Source: Pseudomonadota bacterium
GTDB taxonomy: Bacteria > Desulfobacterota > Syntrophia > Syntrophales > JADFWA01
Assembly: GCA_030610915.1 (NCBI GenBank)
Contig: JAUWQS010000054.1
Location: 1-8,754 of the forward strand
Direction: 5' to 3'
DNA: 8,754 bases
The notes below the pieces were generated by a model. That model ran no database searches. It saw only the letters and a program-made list of their open reading frames with translations, and had not been told where the DNA came from. Every line of letters begins with the position of its first letter. Position 1 is the stretch's first letter. Below, piece by piece: positions 36 to 8,615 of the stretch. A program made the translations under genes and the position numbers.

Positions 36-414
36 CTCTCCCAAATTTCTAATTTCCAATTTCAAGTTTCACGCCGTGAATGGCTAAGATTCACAATCAC
101 TCTTACATATTGGGGGTTGCCCCTATTTATTGAGCTGATACATAATCTGTGTAGATCGGTGGCGAGATAATTACAAAAGTAATTACTCAGCCTACGACAG
201 CCTCAGCCTGACTACCTGAGTAGTTACCCCAAAATTAGAATTGCCGGCCGCTCCTGATTTTTCTTGAAAATCTTTACAACTTCAGATATACATAACAGTT
301 CATGAGTTCACCTCTAACCTTGAATGATGAGCTCTGAACACCTACATAAAGATAATAAGTGTGGGCGGCAATCTGTCTGTGCTGATATTATAAGAACAGT
401 ATAAACAGTGTACT
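36..414. other. gene-free region upstream of tRNA-Ser
   Basis: No convincing coding frame is seen. The stretch holds AT-rich iterated sequence around 45-69 (variants of AATTTCTAATTTCC), a small hairpin GTGAAT/ATTCAC at 76-94, a 14-bp palindrome TAATTAC-aaaa-GTAATTA at 168-185, and the 49-bp inverted-repeat remnant listed separately. A promoter for the tRNA and SRP RNA should lie in its right part. A TATTAT at 386-391 could be a -10 box, but no convincing -35 was found at the right distance. Confidence 0.5.
179..227. repeat. 49-bp mini-element with MITE-like terminal inverted repeats
   Basis: The left end GTAATTACTCAG (179-190) and right end CTGAGTAGTTAC (216-227) form an inverted repeat with 11 of 12 bases matching. 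The same terminal sequence bounds the 184-bp elements at 3541-3724 and 7498-7681. The interior carries CAGCCTCAGCCTGACTAC, which resembles the right part of those elements. It is probably an internally deleted derivative of the same family. No clear target duplication is seen. Confidence 0.55.
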
Positions 415-3540: not shown

Positions 3541-3724
3541 GTAACTACTCAGGTAGATAGACTGAAGGCTGAAGACTGTTAGTAAAAGCGGGAATACGGC
3601 ACACTTTGAAGCCATGTTTGATGCAAAAACCTGCTGTTTCTCTGCCAAAGTGCGGCAATCGTGTTTTTCGGGTACCTTCAGCCTTCAGCCTAAATAGCTT
3701 CAGCCTGACTACGTGAGCAGTTAG
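3541..3724. mobile_element. 184-bp MITE-like element, copy 1
   Basis: The terminal inverted repeats are GTAACTACTCAGGTAG (3541-3556) and CTACGTGAGCAGTTAG (3709-3724), matching at 13 of 16 positions. Inside each end lie CTGAAGG/CAGCCTT units. The element aligns without gaps to 7498-7681 with 157 of 184 bases identical. It encodes no transposase, so if mobile it would depend on an enzyme supplied in trans. No target duplication is visible here, and the right end directly abuts another inverted repeat (3726-3849), suggesting decay or nesting. A minus-strand frame stays open across the element in both copies (see findings). Confidence 0.8.
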
Positions 3725-6745: not shown

Positions 6746-6817
6746 AGGTAATTATTTAGATTGTTCAGGCTGAAGGCTGTTAGCGCCTAATAGTCTTCAG
6801 CCTATCTACCTTCAGTC
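6740..6817. repeat. palindromic CAGCCTT-family element between convergent genes
   Basis: The ends GACTGAAGGTA (6740-6750) and TACCTTCAGTC (6807-6817) are a perfect 11-bp inverted repeat. Inside, AGGCTGAAGGCTGTTAG (6767-6783) pairs with CTAATAGTCTTCAGCCT (6787-6803) around a CGC loop with two mismatches, giving a strong stem on either strand. The outer arms carry the TGA stops of both the DUF3047 gene and nfi. It could act as a bidirectional transcription barrier, although no clean T-run follows the stem on either side. Confidence 0.8.
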
Positions 6818-7495
6818 TAACTCCATCCTGATCCTGTTAACGGTTAGATGCGCTTTTCTTGTGGGTTCAGGGAGTTTGTACCCGGCACAACATGAGAGAA
6901 CCACCTCGATTGCCTTTTGCAATCCGATTCTGTGTCCCTGCGATACGAATACCGGTTTGACATTCTTTTTGGTGCGCAGGGCGGCTCCAATGATCCCGCC
7001 ATTCAAGATAAGATGAGAATAAGCCCCTGTTTCGTTTTCCACTTCATTATATTTCCCGGAAAGTCTTGTTTTTGCACATCCTATCGTTGGTATGTCGAGG
7101 AACAGCCCCATGTGTGAGGCCAGACCGAATCCCCTCGGGTGTGCAATCCCCTGCCCATCAAATATCGCAACATCAGGAACATTTTTCAATTTTTCAAAGG
7201 CCTTCAGAAGCGCTGGACCTTCTCTGAAGGTTAAAAGACCAGGAATATAGGGGAAGCTCACTCTTTCTGAAAAGGAAGCCTCTTCTATGACCTCCATTGA
7301 CGGATACTCAAGAAGAACCACGACTGCGAAAAAAAGATCACTCCCCTTTGAGTAGGAAATATCGGCGCCGGCAACTGTCCTGATCTTGCAGGGTATTCCA
7401 TCATCATGGAGGATAAGTTTCTCTCTCAAGATATGCTGGATACTTATCGCTTCTTTGTAGTTTACGTCCCAGCTATGCAGATTTTTTGTCTTCAT
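6812..7495 (-). CDS. nfi: endonuclease V (deoxyinosine 3' endonuclease)
   Basis: It nicks DNA one phosphodiester bond 3' to deoxyinosine and starts repair of deaminated adenine. The 227-residue product shows the family motifs in order: ADISYS with metal ligand D45, the PYIPG strand-separating wedge (82-86), LTFRE with E92, DGQGIAHPR with D113, GCAKTRL (139-145) and PEPTRKAH ending in the likely catalytic H216. All active-site residues appear present. The ATG lies only 3 nt outside the second MITE-like element, inside its 9-bp flanking duplication, and has no Shine-Dalgarno. Translation was probably once coupled to ribF, which lies upstream on the same strand. The TGA stop comes from the palindrome shared with the DUF3047 gene. 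Confidence 0.95.
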   Translation of the reverse strand: MKTKNLHSWDVNYKEAISIQHILREKLILHDDGIPCKIRTVAGADISYSKGSDLFFAVVVLLEYPSMEVIEEASFSERVSFPYIPGLLTFREGPALLKAFEKLKNVPDVAIFDGQGIAHPRGFGLASHMGLFLDIPTIGCAKTRLSGKYNEVENETGAYSHLILNGGIIGAALRTKKNVKPVFVSQGHRIGLQKAIEVVLSCCAGYKLPEPTRKAHLTVNRIRMELD

Positions 7496-7497
7496 TT

Positions 7498-7681
7498 ATA
7501 ATTATTCAGGTGGATAGACTGAAGGCTGAAGGCTGTTAGGAAAAGCGGAAATACTGCGAATTTTGAAGCCATGTTTGGTACAAGAACCTGCTGTTTCTCC
7601 GCCAAAGCGCCGCAATCGCGCTCTTCCGGCCCCTTCAGCCTTCAGCCTAAACAGCTTCAGCCTGGCTACGTGAGTAGTTAC
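7498..7681. mobile_element. 184-bp MITE-like element, copy 2, between ribF and nfi
   Basis: It aligns gap-free to 3541-3724 at 157 of 184 positions. The right end CTACGTGAGTAGTTAC (7666-7681) is intact; the left end ATAATTATTCAGGTGG (7498-7513) has diverged. CATTTATAA occurs at 7493-7501 and again at 7682-7690, directly flanking the element. This is either a 9-bp target duplication, with the element then running 7502-7681, or a 5-bp CATTT duplication followed by chance identity. It carries no transposase. It supplies the last 10 codons and stop of ribF. Confidence 0.88.
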
Positions 7682-8615
7682 CATTTATAACTGGCGCCAA
7701 TATCTCTTTTGCCTGGTCTATATCCTTTTTGATCTGCTCCGCAAGTCTTTCTACGCTCTCAAACTTTCGTTCATCTCGTATCCTGTCAACGAAAAGGAGA
7801 TTCAGGCTCTTTCCAGCTATATTTCCTTTAAAATCGAGTACATGTGTCTCTACAGAGAGTTTGTCGTTTCCGAAAGTTGGATTGAAGCCTATATTTACAA
7901 CGGATGGGTGACTGCTTCCTTCCATTTCAGCTATGACGGCATAGACACCACTGCCGGGGATCAATACCTTATCGGGTTCTATATTTGCGGTGGGGAAACC
8001 GATGCCGGCGCCCCGCTGATATCCCTTTATAACGGTACCGCCGAGATTATACGGCCTTCCCAATAGCCTTGCGGCTAATTTAACATTGCCGTCGAGAATA
8101 GCGTTGCGTGTCGTTGTGCTGCTGACAGTAATGCCATCAGCCCTTATTGCATTGATAACCTCCACTTCGAAACCCAGCCTGTTGCCGGAGGATTTAAGAT
8201 ATTCTTCGTTTCCCTCTTTACCCCTTCCGAAGGAATAATCATGTCCGATGAATATCTTTTTTATGTGAAGCCTGTCATAGAGGATATTTTTTACAAATTC
8301 TGCCGCTGTAATGTTGGCGACTTCAAGTGAAAATCTTATCAGGACTACTGCATCTATTCCCATGTCCGCGATAAGTCTCAATTTTTCATCGAGAGAGGTT
8401 ATTAAAAAGAATGGCCGCCTCTCTGGATGAAGGACCTTCTTGGGGTGTGGATCAAATGTTATCACGATTGACTTTCTGTTCTCATTATCTGCTTCGATGA
8501 CGACTCTCTTAAATATCTTTTGATGCGCCAGGTGGACACCATCGAAATTACCTATGGTAACGATAGAATCCCTCATATCCCGCGTTATTTTATTTACTCC
8601 TTTAATAATTTTCAT
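7647..8615 (-). CDS. ribF: bifunctional riboflavin kinase / FAD synthetase
   Basis: It phosphorylates riboflavin to FMN and adenylates FMN to FAD. The 322-residue product has the N-terminal FMN adenylyltransferase domain: GNFDGVHLAH (22-31), TFDPHP (53-58), GHDYSFGRGKEGN (124-136) and the SSTTTR signature (165-170). The C-terminal kinase domain has GRPY (186-189), GYQRGAGIGFPTANI (198-212) with the PTAN motif, NIGFNPTFG and the likely catalytic E256 in ETHVLDF. The start MKIIKGV is a typical RibF N-terminus, although the upstream Shine-Dalgarno is poor. Oddity: after VING (309-312) the tail NYSRSQAEAV and the TAG are encoded by the inserted element. Without the insert the frame would end EDKKSA, giving 317 residues. 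nfi lies downstream on the same strand. Confidence 0.96.
   Translation of the reverse strand: MKIIKGVNKITRDMRDSIVTIGNFDGVHLAHQKIFKRVVIEADNENRKSIVITFDPHPKKVLHPERRPFFLITSLDEKLRLIADMGIDAVVLIRFSLEVANITAAEFVKNILYDRLHIKKIFIGHDYSFGRGKEGNEEYLKSSGNRLGFEVEVINAIRADGITVSSTTTRNAILDGNVKLAARLLGRPYNLGGTVIKGYQRGAGIGFPTANIEPDKVLIPGSGVYAVIAEMEGSSHPSVVNIGFNPTFGNDKLSVETHVLDFKGNIAGKSLNLLFVDRIRDERKFESVERLAEQIKKDIDQAKEILAPVINGNYSRSQAEAV

Follow-up and report, generated by a model that had tools for sequence, protein, structure and literature searches.

Probable separation of the overlapping ribF and nfi genes by a MITE insertion, with a second case at trkA-trkH

Chunjie was reportedly described by Chen et al. in 2008 as a MITE of Geobacter uraniireducens, a former deltaproteobacterium. 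As summarized in a review (PMC10969869), it is multicopy and 178-235 bp long, close in size to the MITE analyzed here, and one copy lies in an operon whose structure is undisturbed according to the title of the work. In the review's account no gene overlap is described at its site, unlike at ribF-nfi, and the two elements are likened by description only. The RU-1, RU-2 and RU-3 elements of enterobacteria (PMC2759123) and the Rickettsia palindromic elements (PMC10969869) are presented in these sources as open reading frames inside genes, small mobile sequences that form an in-frame part of a host protein, as does our MITE; unlike them, it provides the last 11 residues of a protein and releases the following gene from an overlap. 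Elements of the IS66 family, as characterized in PMC11946415, have 8-bp direct repeats and ends beginning GTAAGCG. Our MITE shares the GTAA-initial ends and the 8-bp direct repeats, and differs in lacking a transposase gene, in being shorter than 200 bp, and in belonging to a family whose ends read GTAACTA where the cited IS66 end reads GTAAGCG. No precedent for a transposon duplication that splits overlapping genes was found in the literature searched, mostly at title or abstract level; overlap splitting by target duplication, for which we describe two cases, would be a variant without described precedent in that search.

We analyzed the ribF-nfi junction in a window of 8,754 nt, the whole stretch of DNA under study (Table 1). 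Our main explanation, to which we assign a probability of about 0.9, is that a non-autonomous MITE entered a 23-nt overlap between ribF and nfi, an IS66-family transposase having most likely mobilized it in trans. A check of the sequence located the repeat CATTTATAA at exactly 7493-7501 and 7682-7690, bordering the insert on either side as the original prediction had claimed.

Table 1. Features of the ribF-nfi junction and its surroundings in the window, and of the trkA-trkH locus (L040) in the genome of the nearest relative (G001).
Feature	Coordinates	Strand	Remarks
ribF	7647..8615	-	322 aa; FAD synthetase PF06574, riboflavin kinase PF01687
nfi, endonuclease V	6812..7495	-	PF04493; 227 aa, intact; start is the ATG in the duplication
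MITE	7501..7681	-	181 nt in its present form, 184 nt in relatives; homology to 3541-3724 and G001 copies, end and duplication statistics
Target duplication, nfi-side copy	7493..7500	-	CATTTATA on the plus strand; holds nfi ATG at 7493-7495
Target duplication, ribF-side copy	7682..7689	-	CATTTATA on the plus strand
Second full copy of the MITE	3541..3724	.	86% identical over 182 nt
49-nt short element with MITE-family ends	179..227	.	left 12-mer one mismatch, right none
trkA in L040			455 aa; PF02254, PF02080
trkH in L040			483 aa; PF02386

The MITE-like identity first proposed for the insert agrees with its features. At 181 nt it is short (under 500 bp) and carries no transposase gene, its longest frame being a repeat-derived 60 aa; it has inverted-repeat ends and a target duplication, and it is multicopy, with two full copies within the window. 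A 184-nt query returned 43 matches in G001, the genome that holds locus L001, 11 of which cover at least 90% of it, and matches were found in 11 of 60 relatives, G001 included. The terminal inverted repeats of the family are GTAACTACTCAG and CTGAGTAGTTAC; the window copy has GTAACTACTCACGTAG at its ribF-side end and is eroded at the nfi-side end, which is 3 nt short. The end 12-mer GTAACTACTCAG occurs 82 times in G031, 81 in G001, 76 in G003, 71 in G019, 37 in G015, 19 in G002, 10 in G004, 9 in G050, 6 in G005 and 5 in G011, with five or six other genomes having 1-2 occurrences; the reversed 12-mer, used as a control, occurs 0-2 times per genome and not at all in G001. Members with common ends differ widely in their interiors, and the window element represents a new MITE family. 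In loci L112, L167, L149, L194 and L039, the sequences between the GTAACTACTCAG ends are very dissimilar, and many are short direct-repeat runs with pairing arms (GGCTGAA, CACAAAG and GGTTCA types).

The predicted RNA fold of the window copy reaches -69.1 kcal/mol (z -4.33), and none of 200 shuffles was as good. No terminator-like site was found in 7300-7800, nor any promoter brought by the element, the sole promoter-like match (7429-7400, minus strand) falling within nfi. Elsewhere in the window, positions 415-621 hold a tRNA gene (415-506) followed by a small bacterial SRP RNA (524-621), and three inverted repeat pairs (2481-2540/5455-5514, 664-703/5554-5593 and 5516-5542/5979-6005), 93-95% complementary, belong to other dispersed intergenic repeat families.

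The length of the target duplication was assessed on 94 end pairs with full flanks, where length 8 alone rose above background, with a mean flank identity of 0.54 against 0.29 for shuffled pairs; lengths 4-7 and 9-12 gave 0.29-0.34. Among 83 non-redundant pairs, 34 matched at six or more of the eight positions (shuffled mean 1.2, maximum 6, in 1000 shuffles) and 16 matched at all eight (shuffled mean 0.2). The remaining 49 fell below 6/8, including the second full copy in the window, which shows no target duplication (2/8 bases match); the 8-bp flanks of the 49-nt short element agree at 3 positions only. A duplication of 9 bp was rejected, as length 9 stands at background in the 94 end pairs (0.309 versus 0.291 shuffled). 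The 9-nt repeat that had been taken for the duplication is better read as 8 bp, CATTTATA, plus one chance A, because only length 8 exceeds background. Against our main explanation stands the nfi-side flank of the window copy, which misfits an 8-bp duplication unless 3 nt were lost; given such a loss at that end, the copy would fit the duplication CATTTATA. Locus L048 in G001 likewise seems, by eye, to be 2 nt short at one end.

The junction without the element is found in L001, the best RibF match among the genome contigs (89% identical; 37 loci returned). This locus has no insert; its RibF ends LAPAINEDKKPA (AINEDKKPA) and, counting back from the end of the ribF stop, the ATG of nfi is reached after 23 nt. 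When the window flanks are joined with one copy of the duplication, RibF becomes 317 aa long, ends LAPVINEDKKSA and overlaps nfi by 23 nt, and the joined sequence agrees with L001 in 176 of 192 alignment columns. The empty site, the 23-nt overlap and the EDKKSA-like RibF end that the original prediction expected in related genomes are therefore all present as DNA in L001; weighing against the main explanation, the empty site was read as DNA in this single locus, whose contig stops 65 residues into nfi. At the protein level, an EDKKPA or EDKKSA end occurs in four of the seven closest RibF clusters other than the window's own (P0001): EDKKPA in P0003, P0005 (the L001 protein, as judged by its length and the contig size) and P0007, and EDKKSA in P0008 (81% identical). 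The ends INDSVDL (P0002) and EILRRL (P0004 and P0006) suggest that the overlap may have been altered in other ways too. Short repeats do break these draft assemblies, and many element ends lie near contig ends, as would suit an artefact in which a repeat had joined two unrelated contig ends; we consider this practically negligible, given that both flanks align to one continuous stretch of L001, that the duplication is exact, and that the tailed RibF cluster P0001 represents two contigs.

We then placed the overlap in the context of 37 loci, 28 of which contain both genes and represent 25 distinct junctions (L001/L068, L003/L090 and L006/L092 being duplicate places). The genes overlap in four of these junctions, by 23 nt in L001 and by 4 nt in L072, L079 and L081, and are separated by a gap of 8 to 1095 nt in the other 21. 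In L069 (75% identical) and L070 (70%), RibF ends SPHF and there is no overlap. Because relatives at 70-75% identity have separate genes, the 23-nt overlap appears to be derived: from this sampling, we infer that it arose within the window's clade and that the insertion undid it later. The overlap described at the outset as ancestral would thus precede the insertion, as claimed, while being itself a derived state within the clade.

The same junction carries another insert in G002 (L240/L069; RibF 75% identical), where the family's end, CCTGAGTAGTTAC, immediately precedes AAATGAAG at the nfi start; this insertion point is 3 nt away from that in the window. Its interior is unrelated and a second end was not found at this junction; the sequence appears to be an independent insertion, by which the ribF-nfi junction was occupied a second time. 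That elements with the same ends have occupied the site more than once would also suit a history in which the element was ancestral and was precisely excised in L001-like relatives, leaving the overlap as a remnant of the loss. We judge this very improbable, since the G002 insert differs in interior and insertion point, and a clean duplication flanks the window insert. Precise loss would, moreover, need to recur, because L070 has no insert and the empty-type RibF end is common to four clusters at 81-91% identity.

As the sequence shows, a staggered cut duplicated 8 bp containing the nfi start codon, and the ribF frame now enters the element end, meets TAG after ten element codons and has exchanged six residues for eleven. 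The minus-strand end of ribF now reads GTT ATA AAT G/GT AAC TAC TCA CGT AGC CAG GCT GAA GCT GTT TAG. The element contributes the final 11 codons as well as the stop; the first of these codons, divided by the slash, is a hybrid. EDKKSA is accordingly replaced by GNYSRSQAEAV (one hybrid codon and ten element codons), a net gain of five residues. A 10-residue element-encoded tail had been proposed: the ten element codons are there, the tail totals 11, and it takes the place of six residues. The three frames running into the ribF-side end of the element stop after 59, 0 and 10 codons. The riboflavin kinase match (residues 185-306) ends before the altered part of RibF, and nfi retained its ATG and whole coding sequence because the duplicated 8 bp contain its start codon. 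Two further claims of the original prediction hold here, namely that the duplication copied the nfi start codon, which lies inside it ahead of a complete gene, and that both genes survived, with ribF altered only beyond its conserved domain. The spacing between the genes is now a 151-nt gap, compared with the reconstructed 23-nt overlap, and the transcribed gap can form a stable RNA hairpin.

The last step of the proposed mechanism would be a weaker translational coupling of nfi to ribF. Gene overlaps are linked to coupled translation in reporter work (PMC10666635), where coupling was, in the results given, almost abolished at a distance of about 20 nt; it is therefore plausible that nfi lost its coupling to ribF, if the overlap coupled them at all. 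We put at slightly under even odds that the insertion was neutral, nfi having never been coupled to ribF and its expression being unchanged. The two genes lie 8 to over 1000 nt apart in most other relatives, and by eye no Shine-Dalgarno precedes nfi in the window or in the empty site of L001, both of which favor neutrality, against which stands the tie between overlaps and coupled translation in that reporter work. Since the L001 empty site also shows none, the missing Shine-Dalgarno is not new, and its loss through the insertion was rejected; the original prediction was right about the absence and mistaken in treating it as an effect of the insertion, which it predates.

A sister copy of the element, 88% identical to that in the window, lies between trkA and trkH in L040 (1499-1682) of G001. 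Its duplication, GATGAATG/GATGAATA (7/8), covers the ATGA shared by the trkA stop and the trkH start, and neither protein end is changed, because the 4-nt overlap is wholly inside the 8-bp duplication. The sister element acted as in the window, with both proteins unaltered. We sought trkH in ten genomes and found it in eight (all except G015 and G031), taking the best locus in each and leaving out the weaker hits L305 and L306 of G006; trkA and trkH overlap without an insert in all eight relatives examined, the overlap being 4 nt long in six of them and 1 nt long in the other two. The ribF-nfi junction remains the unusually readable example it was said to be, and is not unique, trkA-trkH in G001 being a second case.

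Across 86 G001 loci we counted 26 distinct duplication-supported insertions (27 rows, with L279 twice); the window copy is outside the 26, as its eroded end fails the filter. As raw counts, the start codon of a long frame downstream falls within the duplication in 2 of the 26, namely that of trkH in L040 and that of a DFP/flavoprotein gene in L044; start-codon targeting by the element was considered from these numbers and is not claimed. In one of the 26, L050 (1498-1698), the duplication copies AAGGAG upstream of a putative beta-barrel porin gene, which keeps it; for an empty-site comparison at L050, the relatives of the upstream gene beyond G001 are at most 39% identical and too distant. In L038 (1501-1685, G001), the terminal GTAA of the element gives an RNA pseudouridine synthase its stop at about native length. 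This locus was rejected as a third overlap case, as it has no duplication (1/8) and its flank has lost bases relative to relatives.

As to the source of mobility, the extended end of the MITE family, GTAACTACTCAGG, is carried by IS66 remnants in these genomes. We searched for the 13-nt end, allowing 0-1 mismatch, in 32 loci that match the IS66 transposase (PF03050), 83,576 bases in total. By arithmetic on that number of bases about 0.1 such match is expected by chance; the end was found in four loci, L126 (G011), L129 (G017), L214 (G069) and L218 (G147), in each case some 230-245 nt past the match to a transposase that is a remnant. In L214 both ends are exact over 13 nt around a 1248-bp remnant, with no duplication and a broken transposase, and in L238 (G017, extended contig) the opposite end, with 1 mismatch, is next to a DruA-like gene (PF14236) and a transposase start. 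A DruA-like gene adjoins the IS66 transposase in L128 and L238 of G017 (PF14236 in L128) and, by eye, in L214 of G069. In a plasmid search, 66 records had IS66-type matches, of which the top-ranked reached 51% identity across 97% of the query. Of the 32 IS66 loci, 28 lack the end at 0-1 mismatch, including those with the best-scoring transposases, although some loci may stop before the element ends; no complete IS66 bearing both ends and flanked by a duplication was found among these incomplete draft assemblies.

Mobilization in trans by an IS66-family transposase is most likely on these sequence comparisons. Against this step are the 28 loci without the end and six end-carrying genomes, G001, G002, G003, G005, G015 and G019 (incomplete drafts), in which there is no PF03050 match. 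Most of the MITE-rich genomes show no PF03050 match, and the same facts lend themselves to another transposase that makes 8-bp duplications and is not IS66. We hold that to be unlikely in view of the four IS66 remnants, from four genomes, with the end at a similar distance beyond the transposase match, and of the two exact ends in L214.

The two junctions suggest a rule, according to which a t-bp duplication is able to separate overlaps no longer than t nt without loss, and a longer overlap leads to the rewriting of one gene end; the ribF end would have been rewritten because its 23-nt overlap exceeds the 8-bp duplication. More tentatively, and with rather less than even confidence, we propose that transposons making 8-bp duplications recurrently remove bacterial gene overlaps in a loss-free manner: the most frequent overlaps, of 4 and 1 nt, are short enough to lie within the duplication, so that stop and start would both be copied and the pair uncoupled in one step, while longer ones would need one protein end rewritten. 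If this is true, the length of its duplication would predict which transposon families are able to uncouple operons cleanly. Junctions in which a 23-nt or 4-nt overlap has become a gap of at least 151 nt with both genes spared would provide matched before and after alleles bearing on overlap function. Overlaps could be lost in this way without a damaging intermediate, and such insertions may also be one source of new protein ends.
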